Shown: piece by piece, positions 1 to 5,319 of the stretch
How positions within the stretch are numbered: position 1 is the first letter of the stretch
Layout of the letters: each line of letters starts with the position of its first letter
NCBI GenBank assembly: GCA_025358155.1
Contig: JANYKR010000055.1
Location: 1 to 32,902 of the forward strand
DNA length: 32,902 nucleotides
Source: Betaproteobacteria bacterium
GTDB lineage: Bacteria > Pseudomonadota > Gammaproteobacteria > Burkholderiales > Burkholderiaceae_C
Reading direction: 5' to 3'
Notes under the pieces: model-generated
The model's database searches: none
What the model was told of the DNA's origin: nothing
The model's input: the letters and a program-made list of their open reading frames with translations, nothing else
Position numbers and translations under genes: made by a program

Positions 1-2
1 CT

Positions 3-1034
3 GCGGATGGCTACGCCAGTCTGGCGGCATCGGTCGAACAGTCGCTGAAACAGACCCTGGCCGAGAGCGCCCAAGCGGCTGCGGCGGCGATAGCCCCCAC
101 CGTGACCGCAACGCTGGCCGGCATTGCTGAAGAGACGGGCCTGCTGCACCAGCGTGTGGTCGAGGCCCAGCAGGCCCGGCTCGACGGCCTGACCGAGCAC
201 TGGACAGGCACGTTGGCCGGCGCTGCCGCGCAGTGGCGCGAGGCGCTGGCCGTCAGCCAGACCATGCTGGCCGAGCGCGATCAAGCCCGGCTGGCCGCCT
301 GGTCGGGCTCGCTGGCCAGCCTGTCCGGCACGCTGCAGCGCGAATGGCAGCAGGCCGGGGCGGCAACCCTGGCACAGCAGCAAGCCATCTGCCACACGCT
401 CGATGCCACGGCGCAGCAGATCAGCCAGCAGGCCGCCGCCCAAACCCGCCAGACCCTCAGCGAGATCGCCCAGCTGTTGCAGGTCGCCGCCGAGGCGCCG
501 CGTGCGGCTGCCGAGCTGATCGCGCCCTTGCGCCAGCAGCTCTCCGACAGCCTGGCCCGCGACACGGCGATGCTGACCGAGCGCAGCCAGATCATGGCCA
601 GCCTGAGCGGCCTGCTGGCGTCGGTGCAACAGGCCGCCGCCCAGCAGGGCAGCGCGGTAGGCGCGCTGGTGGCCTCATCGTCCGCATTGCTGGGTGGCGT
701 CGAGCAGCGCTTTGCGCAACGTGTCGATGCCGATGCCGACCGGCTCGCCGCCGTTGCCGACCAGGTCAGCGGCAGCGCGGCAGAGGTTGCCAGCCTGGGC
801 GAGGCCTTTGGCCTGGGCGTGCAGCAGTTTGGGGCGGCCAATGACAAGCTGGTCGACCAGTTGCAGCGCGTCGAGAACTCGCTGGTCAAGTCCAGCGCCC
901 GCAGCGACGAGCAGCTCGCCTACTACGTGGCCCAGGCGCGCGAGGTGATCGACCTCAGCATCGCCGCGCAAACCCAGATCGTCGAAGAACTGCAGCACCT
1001 GGCCCGGCGCCAGGCCGTGGTCGAGGCGGTTTGA
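3..1034 (+). CDS. DUF802 domain protein, C-terminal part (5' end outside window)
   Basis: The reading frame is open from the first bases of the window to the TGA at 1032-1034, so this is the last ~343 residues of a longer protein. The visible part is almost entirely Ala/Gln/Leu-rich helix with heptad-like spacing and no cysteine, typical of a long coiled coil. It ends in a short charged segment rich in Ala, Gln, Val and Glu. Family: I recognise it as the DUF802 protein that in Burkholderiales lies between a DUF3348 gene and an OmpA gene. The next gene starts inside the stop codon (TGATG), so the two are probably translationally coupled. Any N-terminal membrane segments would be upstream of the window. 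Inference: a MotA/ZorA-like partner for the downstream MotB-like protein, with this coiled coil as its tail. The biochemical function is unknown. Confidence 0.75.
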   Translation, partial: ADGYASLAASVEQSLKQTLAESAQAAAAAIAPTVTATLAGIAEETGLLHQRVVEAQQARLDGLTEHWTGTLAGAAAQWREALAVSQTMLAERDQARLAAWSGSLASLSGTLQREWQQAGAATLAQQQAICHTLDATAQQISQQAAAQTRQTLSEIAQLLQVAAEAPRAAAELIAPLRQQLSDSLARDTAMLTERSQIMASLSGLLASVQQAAAQQGSAVGALVASSSALLGGVEQRFAQRVDADADRLAAVADQVSGSAAEVASLGEAFGLGVQQFGAANDKLVDQLQRVENSLVKSSARSDEQLAYYVAQAREVIDLSIAAQTQIVEELQHLARRQAVVEAV

Positions 1035-1672
1035 TGGACGAGACCGACAGCGCCCTGGAGCCGACGGTCTGGGCCGTCTTTGGCGACCTGATGGCTGGCC
1101 TGCTGGGCGCTTTTGTGCTGATCCTGGTCTGCGTGCTCGGCATGCAATTGCAGCTGACCGCCCAGCTCGACGCCGAGGTCAAGGCGCGGCAGCAGGAAGC
1201 GCAACGCCGGCTGACCTTGGAGCGCGCGCTGGCCGGCCCGCTGGCCAGCGGCCGGATCACGCTGGACCACGGCCGCATCGGCATCAGCGGCAGCGTGCTG
1301 TTTGCGCTCAACTCCGACCAGTTGCAGGCCGAGGGCCGCAGCCTGCTCCAGACCCTGACGCCGCCGCTCGCCGCCTACCTGCGTGAGCGCGACGAGCTGC
1401 TGATGGTCAGCGGCTTCACCGACGACCGGCCCCTGCGCGAGGGCAACCGCCAGTTTGTCGACAACTGGGAGCTCTCGGCGCAGCGCTCGCTGACGGTGAT
1501 GCGGGTGCTGATCGAAGGCGGCCTGCCCGCGGGCTCGGTCTTTGCAGCGGCCTTTGGCCCGGAGCAGCCGGTGGCCTCCAACCGCGACGAGCCCGGCCGG
1601 TCGCGCAACCGCCGGGTTGAAATGGCGCCGGTGCCCCGGCTGGCGACGGCCGCGCCCAAGCCCCATGGTTGA
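1034..1672 (+). CDS. MotB/ZorB-like OmpA-family protein
   Basis: 212 residues from the ATG at 1034, which overlaps the preceding TGA by one base. An in-frame TTG at 1031 is a less likely start. Residues ~12-36 form a single membrane segment that begins with Phe-Gly-Asp18-Leu-Met, the position and context of the proton-binding Asp in MotB (Tyr-Ala-Asp-Phe-Met). A short charged linker (~40-70) follows. The C-terminal OmpA/MotB domain (~75-200) has the GFTDDRPL motif, NWELSAQR and the closing RSRNRRVEM, which in this family bind peptidoglycan. Expected location is the inner membrane with the C-terminus in the periplasm. Neighbours suggest a stator-like complex with the DUF802 protein. No flagellar genes are nearby, so flagellar MotB is unlikely. 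ZorB of the Zorya defence system has the same architecture. Confidence 0.85.
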   Translation: MDETDSALEPTVWAVFGDLMAGLLGAFVLILVCVLGMQLQLTAQLDAEVKARQQEAQRRLTLERALAGPLASGRITLDHGRIGISGSVLFALNSDQLQAEGRSLLQTLTPPLAAYLRERDELLMVSGFTDDRPLREGNRQFVDNWELSAQRSLTVMRVLIEGGLPAGSVFAAAFGPEQPVASNRDEPGRSRNRRVEMAPVPRLATAAPKPHG

Positions 1673-2351
1673 GGCCCGGCTGGCGGCCTGGCGCGGGCGC
1701 GGCGCCGCCCGTTTCGACGCGCTGCGCTTCGGCTTTGTCGAGGCCCTGGCCCGGCGCACGGCGGCGCACAGCGGCGCGGCGACGAGGGCTGTGCTCGAGG
1801 CCCGGCTGATGGCGGCGCTGCAGGCCTACGGCGAGCACTTTGACGCTGCCCAGGCCGAGGCCACCCGGTTGCTGACCGAGGCCACGGCGCGCTTTCCGGC
1901 CGCTTGCGAGGCCTTGCGCCAGTGCCATGCGGCCGGTGACTTTGGCGCGCTGCGCCGCCAGGTGGCAGCCCTGCAGCTTGCGGCCGCCCCGAGGCCCTGG
2001 GCCGAACTGGAGCGAGCATTTGGGCCGGACGGCGCGGCAACCGGCCTCGCCAAGGCCTCGGCAAATGGCCTGCCGGAAACCCAGCCGGCCGGCCCGGCAG
2101 GTCCCGAACTCAAAGCCGCCACGCGGTTCAGAAAAACCTGGGCCCGGCTGGGCGCCGAGAAGCGCTTGCGCGAGTCGCTGGCCCAGGCGCCCGGCAACGC
2201 CGGCCCGCTCAATTCTCATGGCCTGGTCTTGCGCTCGCTGCAGCGCATGCACGCCGTCTCACCCGACTACCTCAGCCGCTGGGTCGCCCAGGTCGATGCC
2301 TTGCTCTGGATCGAGCAGGCCGCGCGCGCTGTCGGGCGCGACCGCAGCTAA
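1665..2351 (+). CDS. DUF2894 domain protein
   Basis: 228 residues. The ATG at 1665 lies inside the end of the OmpA gene, an 8-base overlap, so the three genes 3-2351 form one operon. I prefer this start because the frame upstream of it is only the shadow of the OmpA gene. The protein is soluble, Ala/Arg-rich and helical, with no signal peptide or membrane segment. A variable middle (~120-165) separates an N-terminal helical domain from a conserved-looking C-terminus (Pro-Leu-Asn-Ser-His-Gly-Leu, then Tyr-Leu-Ser-Arg-Trp and Asp-Ala-Leu-Leu-Trp-Ile-Glu). Family: DUF2894, a Burkholderiales protein found with DUF802 and OmpA genes. Function unknown. By position, a cytoplasmic accessory of the putative membrane complex. 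Confidence 0.75.
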   Translation: MVEARLAAWRGRGAARFDALRFGFVEALARRTAAHSGAATRAVLEARLMAALQAYGEHFDAAQAEATRLLTEATARFPAACEALRQCHAAGDFGALRRQVAALQLAAAPRPWAELERAFGPDGAATGLAKASANGLPETQPAGPAGPELKAATRFRKTWARLGAEKRLRESLAQAPGNAGPLNSHGLVLRSLQRMHAVSPDYLSRWVAQVDALLWIEQAARAVGRDRS

Positions 2352-2470
2352 CGCGCCACCCTCGCGCCGCGCCAGGTCGGATTCGGCCCTGATCCGCCCG
2401 GTCGCCACGGGTCAACGCGAGCCTTCAATCACCCCCGGCCGCGAGCGGACCTGTGTCCCCCGCTGCGGCC

Positions 2471-2482
2471 TATGATGGCGCA
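2471..2482 (+). promoter_or_regulatory. -10 element directly before kynB, possible leaderless start
   Basis: TATGAT at 2471-2476 matches a sigma-70 -10 hexamer. Only six bases separate it from the kynB ATG at 2483, and there is no purine-rich ribosome site. Transcription would start at or next to the A of the ATG. The -35 region at the right distance (GACCTG, 2448-2453) is a weak match. Confidence 0.4.
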
Positions 2483-3106
2483 ATGAAGCGGCTCTGGGAC
2501 ATTTCACCGCCGGTGCATGCCGGCTCCCCCGTCTTTCCGGGTGACACGCCCTACAGCCAGCAATGGGCCACGACGCTCTCGCCGGGCTGCCCGGTCAATG
2601 TCGCCACGCTCACCCTCAGCCCGCACACCGGCGCCCATGCCGACGCGCCGCTGCACTACAGCCCCGACGGTGCCGCCGTGGGTGCGCTCGATCTGGCGCC
2701 CTACCTCGGGCCGTGCCGGGTGATCCACGCGCTGGCCTGTGGCCCGCTGGTCGAGTGGCGGCACCTGGCCCATGCATTGGCCGGTCTGCCGCCTCGGGTG
2801 TTGGTGCGCACCTACGCCCAGGCGCCGAGCGGCTGGGACCCTGCGCTCAGCGCGTTTGCGCCCGACACCGTCAGCCGCCTGGCCGACGCCGGCGTGTGCC
2901 TGATCGGCATCGACACCGCCAGCATCGATCCGGCCGACAACAAGACCCTGCCCAGCCACCAGGTGATCCGCCAGCGCGGCCTGCGGGTGCTGGAGAACCT
3001 GGTGCTCGACGCCGTGCCCGAGGGCGACTACGAGCTGATCGCCCTGCCGCTCAAGCTGATGAGCGCCGATGCCTCGCCGGTGCGCGCCGTGTTGCGTGCG
3101 CTTTGA
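2483..3106 (+). CDS. kynB: Kynurenine formamidase (arylformamidase)
   Basis: 207 residues. Hydrolyses N-formyl-L-kynurenine to kynurenine and formate, the second step of tryptophan breakdown to anthranilate; soluble cytoplasmic metalloenzyme. It belongs to the cyclase-like KynB family. The metal-binding motif H48-x3-H52-x-D54-x3-H58 is intact (His-Thr-Gly-Ala-His-Ala-Asp-Ala-Pro-Leu-His), and the N-terminus Trp-Asp-Ile-Ser-Pro-Pro-Val is typical. Further family marks are Gly-Ile-Asp-Thr-Ala-Ser-Ile-Asp-Pro and the C-terminal Leu-Pro-Leu-Lys-Leu. Length is normal. I chose ATG 2483 over a GTG at 2453 because homologues start at this Trp-Asp-Ile-Ser region. It is first in the order B-U-A, 36 bases before kynU, and the genes are almost surely co-transcribed. 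Confidence 0.95.
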   Translation: MKRLWDISPPVHAGSPVFPGDTPYSQQWATTLSPGCPVNVATLTLSPHTGAHADAPLHYSPDGAAVGALDLAPYLGPCRVIHALACGPLVEWRHLAHALAGLPPRVLVRTYAQAPSGWDPALSAFAPDTVSRLADAGVCLIGIDTASIDPADNKTLPSHQVIRQRGLRVLENLVLDAVPEGDYELIALPLKLMSADASPVRAVLRAL

Positions 3107-3142
3107 GGCGCAGGCTCAGCCTCAACCTGTGACCGACCGATC

Positions 3143-4486
3143 ATGACCGCCCTGACCGCCCTGTTTCGAGACCAAGCCCTGGCTGACGATGCCGCCGATG
3201 TCCTGGCGCCGCTGCGCCAGCAGTTTGTCCTGCCCGAGGGCTTGATCTACCTCGACGGCAACTCGCTGGGCGTGCTGCCGCGCAGCGTCGCCGCCAGGCT
3301 CTTGCAAGTCGTCACCGAAGAGTGGGGCCAGGGCCTGATTGGCAGCTGGAACAGCGCCGGCTGGATGGCCCAGCCGCAGCGCATTGGCGACAAGATCGCC
3401 CGCCTGGTGGGTGCGGGCCCGGGCGAGCTGGTGGTGGCCGATTCGACTTCGGTCAACCTGTTCAAAGTGCTTTCTGCCGCGCTGGCGATGCAGCGCGAGG
3501 ACGCACCCGGGCGGCGGGTGGTGGTCAGCGAGCGCAGCAATTTCCCGACCGACCTCTACATTGCCGACTCGCTCTGCCAGCAGTACGGCTGCCGCCTGCG
3601 GCTGGTGGACAACGCCAGCGAGCTGCCGGCCGCGCTCGACGCCGACTGTGCGGTGCTGATGCTCACCCAGGTCAACTACCGCACCGGCGCGCTGCACCCG
3701 ATGGCCGCGCTCAGCGCCACCGCCCATGCCGCTGGCGCGCTGACGGTCTGGGATCTGGCGCATTCAGCCGGCGCGGTGCCGGTGGCCCTGGCTGCCGACG
3801 GTGCCGACTTTGCGGTGGGTTGCGGCTACAAATACCTCAACGGTGGCCCCGGTGCACCGGCTTTTGCCTGGGTCCGGCCCGGCCTGGTCGGGCGCAGCCG
3901 GCAGCCGCTGTCGGGCTGGCTGGGCCATGCCGCGCCGTTTGCTTTCGAGACCGGCTACACCCCGGCGCCGGGCATCCAGCGCTTTGTCTGCGGCACACCG
4001 CCGGTGCTGGCGCTGGCCGCGCTCGACTGCGGCGTCGATACCCTGCTGTCGGCAGAGCCGCTGGGCGGCATGGCGGCGCTGCGCCGCAAATCCTTGGCGC
4101 TGACCCGCAGTTTCATCGAGCTGGTGGCCGGGCGTTGTGCCGGCCACGGCCTGCTGCTGGTCTCGCCCGATGCGGACGCCGGGCGCGGCAGCCAGGTCTG
4201 CCTGGCCTTTGAGGCGTCCAGCCCGGCCGGCCAGGCTGGGGCCGCGTATGCCGTGGTGCAGGCCTTGATAGGCCGTGGCGTGGTGGGCGACTTCCGCGCC
4301 GGGGTGCAAGCCAGCGGGAGCGCCAACGCCAGCGCGGTCGCACTGCCCGACATCCTGCGGTTTGGCGTCACGCCGCTCTACACCCGCTTTGTCGACGTCT
4401 GGGACGCGGTGGAGCATCTGCGCCTCGTGTTGACCAGCGGTGAATGGCAGCAGGCCCGCTTTGCCCAGCGCGGAGCGGTGACATGA
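3143..4486 (+). CDS. kynU: Kynureninase
   Basis: 447 residues. PLP enzyme that cleaves L-kynurenine to anthranilate and L-alanine. The aspartate-aminotransferase fold is recognisable: Tyr-Leu-Asp-Gly-Asn-Ser-Leu-Gly near residue 36, the Gly-Ser-Trp-Asn segment near 67, and the Asp-Leu-Ala-His-Ser-Ala-Gly stretch (~204-210). The Schiff-base lysine is K230 in Gly-Cys-Gly-Tyr-Lys-Tyr-Leu-Asn. The length is somewhat above the usual ~415-420 residues, mostly from the N-terminus and a few loop residues. Its stop overlaps the kynA start (ATGA at 4483-4486), indicating translational coupling. No regulator such as KynR (Lrp type) is adjacent. Confidence 0.96.
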
Positions 4487-5319
4487 CGGACCCCAGCGTG
4501 CCGCGCCACGAAGGCGCCCAGCTCGACTTTTCGAAGTCCATGAGCTACGGCGACTACCTGCAGCTCGACGCGCTGCTCGGCGCCCAGCATCCGCTGTCGC
4601 CGGCGCATGACGAGATGCTGTTCATCGTGCAGCACCAGACCAGCGAGCTGTGGATGAAGCTGATGTTGCACGAGCTGCGAGCCGCCGTCGCCGCGCTCGC
4701 CGCCGACCGGCTGCCACCGGCCTTCAAGATGCTGGCCCGCATCTCGCGCATCCTGGAGCAACTGGTGCATGCCTGGGACGTGCTGGCCACCATGACGCCG
4801 CCCGAGTACAGCGCGATCCGGCCCTACCTGGCCCAATCGTCGGGCTTTCAGAGCTGGCAGTACCGCTGCATCGAGTTCATGCTCGGCAACAAGAGCGCGG
4901 CCCTGCTCAAGCCGCATGCCCACAACCCCAACCGGCTGGCCGAGGTCGAGGCCGCCTGGCGTGCGCCCTCGCTGTACGACGAGGCCTTGCGCCTGCTGGC
5001 TCGGCGCGGCCTGGCGCTGCCCGCCAGCCGCACCCAGCGCGACTGGACCGGGCCGTACGCGGCCGATGAGGCGGTCAAGCAGGCCTGGCTGGTGGTCTAC
5101 CGGGCGCCCGAGACGCATTGGGACCTGTACCAACTCGGTGAGGAGCTGACCGACCTGGAGGACGCGTTCCGGCTCTGGCGTTTTCGCCACCTCACCACCG
5201 TCTCCAGGATCATCGGCCTAAAGGGCGGCACCGGCGGCACCAGCGGCGTGGCCTACCTGCGGCGCATGCTGGATGTGGAGTTGTTCCCGGAGCTTTGGCA
5301 GTTGCGCACCGATTTGTGA
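4483..5319 (+). CDS. kynA: Tryptophan 2,3-dioxygenase
   Basis: 278 residues, the usual size. Haem enzyme that opens the indole ring of L-tryptophan with O2 to give N-formylkynurenine, the first step of the pathway, although its gene is last in the operon. The active-site helix Phe-Ile-Val-Gln-His51-Gln-Thr-Ser-Glu-Leu-Trp is intact. The proximal haem ligand is H236 in Arg-Phe-Arg-His-Leu-Thr-Thr, and the substrate-binding loop Gly-Gly-Thr-Gly-Gly-Thr-Ser-Gly (~248-255) follows. Start at ATG 4483 inside the kynU stop; an in-frame upstream extension from 4444 overlaps kynU and is not family sequence. With kynB and kynU it converts tryptophan to anthranilate and alanine. No anthranilate-degrading genes appear in the window. 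Confidence 0.96.

Follow-up and report, generated by a model that had tools for sequence, protein, structure and literature searches.

What kind of machine is encoded at the start of the window, the 32,902-nucleotide stretch of betaproteobacterial DNA analyzed here, where the gene for a small OmpA-domain protein with one membrane span overlaps a gene for a long Ala/Gln-rich coiled-coil protein on one side and a DUF2894 gene on the other? A sequence-only reading had taken these genes for an ion-driven envelope complex "neither flagellar nor canonical Zorya" and with unknown partners. The locus is instead probably (at about 85%) an anti-phage operon of Zorya type III, with the gene order DUF3348-zorA-zorB-DUF2894 and a contig end that falls within zorA (Table 1). 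The gene content, the gene order and the family membership of the four genes are demonstrated: the PADLOC type III models match all four proteins with E-values far beyond chance, and for ZorA and ZorB they outscore the type I/II models by far. In 2021, Payne et al. defined type III by a zor gene pair that has a DUF3348 gene and a DUF2894 gene at its flanks, with 6,401 cases, and reported that one such system, from Stenotrophomonas nitritireducens, protected E. coli against phages (PMC8565338). The four-gene set is that of type III, and as this type was already named in 2021, the claim of novelty falls. The DUF2894 protein, proposed earlier as a partner, does belong to the set. DUF2894 and DUF3348 were mentioned only in PMC8565338 and PMC11890865 in the literature searched, and DUF802 came up in one further paper. 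Both papers, of 2021 and 2025, use ZorF for the DUF3348 protein and ZorG for the DUF2894 protein; the names are swapped in PADLOC-DB v2, where ZorF3 is DUF2894 and ZorG3 is DUF3348.

Table 1. Features of the type III locus; positions are those of the window unless contig C21 is named
Feature	Position	Strand	Evidence
5' part of zorA, four hydrophobic segments	L004 1177-2 (contig C21)	-	PADLOC ZorA3 1.9e-144
3' part of zorA (type III), cytoplasmic coiled-coil tail	3..1034	+	PADLOC ZorA3 7.4e-119; frame open at contig end
zorB (type III), 212 aa, one membrane helix with D18, OmpA-type domain at residues 89-193	1034..1672	+	PADLOC ZorB3 1.9e-105; Pfam OmpA 1.6e-15
D18 codon, predicted motor aspartate	1085..1087	+	alignment to 8VVN D24; invariant 45/45
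DUF2894 gene (PADLOC-DB ZorF3)	1665..2351	+	Pfam DUF2894 5.3e-50; PADLOC ZorF3 1.8e-55
DUF3348 gene (PADLOC-DB ZorG3), 293 aa	L004 2055-1174 (contig C21)	-	Pfam DUF3348 6.8e-54; PADLOC ZorG3 1.3e-63

What might the two partner proteins do? In types I and II the effector step is assigned to ZorCD or to the nickase ZorE (PMC11890865). AlphaFold models of DUF2894 (pLDDT 85, pTM 0.54) and DUF3348 are all-helical, no related solved fold was found for either model, and no nuclease fold was recognized in either protein, one portion of DUF2894 being barely covered by the search. Because both are predicted to be all-helical, we expect them to act as regulators or adaptors and not as nucleases. Regulation of ZorAB is the function that Payne et al. 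propose for them (PMC8565338). Our reading agrees with that role, the alternative being that they are adaptors to another output.

How is the operon distributed? A search of genome contigs returned at least 569 ZorB relatives, of which the best 80 were analyzed, so that this set leans to close relatives. The order DUF3348-ZorA-ZorB-DUF2894 is complete in 76 of the 80 loci, the other four being cut by contig ends. Gaps of at most 30 bases occur at 72/76, 73/76 and 76/76 junctions, counts that favor short gaps because start codons were chosen close to the preceding stop. Some OmpA-domain match is present in all 21 genomes of the window's genus, and a strong ZorB (E < 1e-79; next match, 2.2e-13) in 12 of them, or in 9/12 when the count is confined to genomes with completeness of 90% or more and contamination of no more than 5%; at the family level ZorB is found in 60/200 genomes (E <= 1e-40). 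Type III is present, always as one copy, in 42/43 genomes of the genus group around an Achromobacter locus (L051), in 51/60 around a Cupriavidus locus (L060), and in 90/97 around a Paraburkholderia locus (L050), compared with 7/43 genomes of the Achromobacter group for the CBASS cyclase family SMODS, the sole control family.

Such near-fixed presence in some genera is unusual for a defense system. It could be viewed as the mark of an operon that in Burkholderiales is mainly a resident motor for envelope sensing or maintenance, with phage protection as one outcome. The single copies fit that view, as do the lack of a recognized nuclease fold in the partners, the absence of any excess of PADLOC neighbors in our samples, and a settled place in Achromobacter, where all 15 pairs of six loci have at least one neighbor in common. 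However, one type III system does guard E. coli from phages (PMC8565338), the operon is patchy in the window's own genus and sparse in the family as a whole, and the comparison with CBASS involves a single control family. Nor is its place kept in the window's genus, in which a neighboring gene is common to 3/66 genome pairs versus 29/91 for the kynA control, several contigs in both sets being short. We consider a primarily resident role unlikely, and retain the reading of the locus as a type III anti-phage operon. Shared neighbors were found in 28/55 pairs of 11 Paraburkholderia/Burkholderia loci, 15/28 pairs of eight Cupriavidus loci and 22/153 pairs of 18 Variovorax loci, and so, with the 15/15 of Achromobacter, the operon keeps its place in certain groups and changes it elsewhere.

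The surroundings of the operon were examined for a defense island, a mobile element and a conserved metabolic neighbor. The enrichment beside defense genes suggested by the sequence-only reading was not seen in the ORF samples scanned. Within 3 kb of type III loci there were 20 PADLOC families with one member each (E <= 1e-10; 100 of 329 ORFs), namely 17 E1-E2 models, mad3, mad8 and AriA, or about four proteins if the E1-E2 models match one protein; at 5.5 kb or more there were 12 families in about six proteins (E <= 1e-10; 100 of 182 ORFs), with the names RtcR, PDC-M37B, DolB, mad3, DrmC and TRIP13. Both samples came from the same loci and from naive ORF calls that include some shadow ORFs. 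Among the 10 neighbors of the window's copy, only a kynureninase-like protein matched PADLOC, weakly (DndA, 1.3e-7; SspA, 2e-6). The idea of a mobile element was likewise set aside: none of five matching phage records covered ZorB to 80%, and of 100 matching plasmid records 37 did, all 20 of those listed being larger than 0.58 Mb. Downstream of the operon, at window positions 2453-5319, lie three genes that we take to be a kynurenine pathway set (formamidase, kynureninase and tryptophan 2,3-dioxygenase), and a conserved place beside kyn genes was rejected, with kyn matches in 0/80 loci over the stretch examined around each. The tryptophan 2,3-dioxygenase gene is present in 14/21 genomes of the window's genus, and where another of these genomes carries this gene as well as zorB, the two are on different contigs or, in one genome (G013), about 670 kb apart.

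Is the window's copy intact? The window begins within zorA because the contig end falls there, window base 1 being the first base of contig C251. The DUF3348 gene and the front of zorA are on C21, another contig of the same genome, and the rest of zorA (343 codons, Ala+Gln 35%), zorB and the DUF2894 gene are on C251. The end of C21, read on the opposite strand, overlaps window positions 1-357 and differs from them at 6 of the 357 bases, and the bin may therefore mix strains. Both parts of zorA are open and share one phase through the overlap, which gives ZorA 617 codons if C21 and C251 adjoin. The break within zorA and the mismatches would suit a broken system, with contig ends from different strains or a decaying copy, but with the frames open on both sides, one strong ZorB in the genome (next match, E = 1.2e-8), and the DUF3348 gene, zorB and the DUF2894 gene whole, we judge this very improbable. 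The open reading frames, the OmpA domain and the overlaps had been described correctly before: the zorA stop codon and the zorB ATG share one base, and zorB and the DUF2894 gene overlap by 8 bases. A look upstream for MotA-type membrane helices in the coiled-coil protein and for a DUF3348 gene had also been suggested, and a MotA-like ZorA front with hydrophobic segments and a DUF3348 gene are present on C21.

To what extent does the ZorAB pair resemble a motor? In the C21 part of ZorA, a crude scan places hydrophobic segments at residues 6-24, 29-47, 125-143 and 174-192, and the same scan finds four such segments in 52 of 76 relatives. Pfam MotA_ExbB matches this front part only at E 0.67. The ZorA3 membrane core matches the solved ZorA of 8VVN (chain C) with an E-value of 4.8e-05, and core residues T137, T144, T178 and S179 are invariant in 45/45 sequences. 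A profile of 17 ZorB3 N-terminal sequences matches the solved type I ZorB (8VVN chain B) with an E-value of 9.3e-06, placing D18 on D24, the critical aspartate of that protein (PMC11890865); a weak match to E. coli ZorB 8QYD (E 0.055) places it on D26. D18 is invariant in all 45 aligned ZorB sequences, and the motif FGDLM is present in all 80 of the listed relatives, the best 80 of at least 569. By alignment, then, D18 is the predicted motor aspartate of type III ZorB, as the sequence-only reading had proposed. That reading had staked its case on membrane helices in the full-length partner and on an aspartate kept among homologs; hydrophobic segments are present in ZorA and D18 is kept throughout. 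Its description of the sequence was good and its inference close. In the OmpA domain, D130, D131, N144, S148, R151, N192 and R193 are invariant among the aligned ZorB sequences. Asp and Arg residues of this kind bind peptidoglycan in OmpA relatives. The window's ZorB scores 346.8 bits against NCBIfam PRK09040 (cut-off 194). PRK09040 (NF006547) is still named "hypothetical protein" in NCBIfam, though PADLOC makes the same window protein a type III ZorB. A flagellar or Tol-like accessory stator, which the OmpA/MotB-like domain and the weaker matches to MotB and MotD models might bring to mind, is extremely improbable, since ZorB stays far under those cut-offs (MotD 85.8 versus 283 bits, MotB lower still, among the 25 of 38 NCBIfam families listed), scores on the ZorA3 and ZorB3 models lie at about 350 to 480 bits, and the partners are DUF3348 and DUF2894.

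The ZorA tail is one part of the system in which the earlier inference went astray. DUF802 had been taken for the ZorA-like part itself, but it is a tail repeat of some ZorA3 proteins. In either part of the window's ZorA there is no Pfam match to DUF802 (PF05650) at E <= 1, and a repeat model built in this analysis also detects no repeat there. Three relatives were scanned for DUF802, and their tails contain six (L051), one (L036) and two (L060) stretches. Across 76 proteins, ZorA3 length spans a twofold range, from 601 to 1229 residues, and repeat copy number by our own model increases with it (Spearman 0.72). Many tails are composed of tandem units of lineage-specific length (55, 58, 87, 95, 116, 131, 149 and other values), and the shortest tails have no tandem units above the shuffled level. 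The ZorA of L051 (6309-9995) and those of the Achromobacter-group loci (L160-L199) contain 131-residue tandem units that are locally up to 98-100% identical over 60 residues.

Three measures of the tails agree on a single helical period. For 34 distinct repeat spacings, the best whole-turn fit is 3.64 residues per turn, and when multiples of other spacings are removed, the remaining 18 fit best at 3.635, with 0/2000 random sets equal in each case; spacings of 165, 232, 261 and 203 fit poorly, being off by 0.2 to 0.35 turn. Distances between landmarks at the front and end of ZorA, measured in 113 proteins, fall on 38 values, and the phases of these values cluster at a period of 3.635 (0/2000 random); for the 17 values seen twice or more the figure is 2/2000, which, unlike the 0/2000, is touched by the double counting of at least four Achromobacter genomes among the 113. 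The ends of ZorA share one frame in 75/78 loci, and the other three (L052, L057 and L080) were excluded from both the spacing and the landmark analyses. Tail hydrophobicity has a periodicity peak at 3.65 residues (power 9.6; shuffled maximum 1.2; 1.9 at 3.5), and with a power of 7.6 at 3.6 this measure by itself hardly tells 3.65 apart from a plain helix; for the tail of the window's copy the peak is at 3.61. The Achromobacter group illustrates the steps directly. ZorA was read in 41 of its 42 ZorB genomes, and after omission of one at a contig end (L172) and one with a broken frame (L174) there were 39 full proteins, with lengths of 1076 (4), 1098 (16), 1133 (1), 1200 (8), 1207 (2) and 1229 (8). 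The 1133-residue protein is built on another unit; among the rest, the steps are 22, 29, 102 or 131 residues, or sums and differences of these four, which are equivalent to 6.04, 7.97, 28.02 and 35.99 turns at 3.64. Most length steps of ZorA3 thus agree with whole turns of a coil that has about 3.64 residues in each turn. Relatedness is not taken into account in the random models, and in-phase change is to be expected of any coiled coil; the pattern therefore speaks for a continuous helical rod and not for a special function. With a period above 3.6, the bundle may be near-straight to slightly right-handed.

How might such a machine work? By homology with the solved ZorAB complexes, five ZorA subunits would surround two ZorB helices, D18 would carry ions, and the OmpA domain of ZorB would hold peptidoglycan. 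Damage to the wall by a phage may then shift ZorB and open ion flow, ZorA would rotate, and its long helical tail could relay the signal to the DUF3348 and DUF2894 proteins. Types I and II need ion flow, wall binding and the tail, and envelope sensing is a published inference for them (PMC11890865). It is conceivable, and we propose it only tentatively, that in Burkholderiales type III ZorAB serves as a resident rotary sensor of the envelope, close to fixation in several genera, with a non-nuclease output. Its drive shaft would be a continuous helical bundle, near-straight or turning slightly to the right, altered by whole turns through lineage-specific tandem units of, for example, 87 or 131 residues, and this would keep the angle right at which it meets DUF3348 and DUF2894.

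The window's copy is itself ordinary, and the added interest lies in the distribution and the tail series. A limited literature search, with most subscription papers outside it, found no published account of the near-fixed presence or of the tail series. Defense by types I and II depends on the tail, whose role is open (PMC11890865); the ZorA proteins of type III, from about 600 to 1229 residues and differing mostly by whole turns, are a natural series for separating length from phase. The combination of no recognized nuclease and near-fixed presence makes the type III effector and its native role direct questions. Compared with type III as published (PMC8565338), the window's system has the same gene content, a ZorA/ZorB pair between a DUF3348 and a DUF2894 gene, and matches the same PADLOC models, but it has a short ZorA, of 617 codons should the contigs adjoin, in which the DUF802 repeat is not detected. 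With the flagellar MotAB stator it shares an aspartate at the start of the MotB-type helix and an OmpA-type domain, and it differs in the long ZorA tail and in its partners. Compared with Zorya types I and II, it has no ZorC, ZorD or ZorE among the 10 neighboring proteins (PADLOC, E <= 1e-5), and what it has in common with their solved ZorAB complexes (8VVN, 8VVI and 8QYD) is the apparatus itself: a MotA/MotB-like core, a motor aspartate, an OmpA domain and a long tail.
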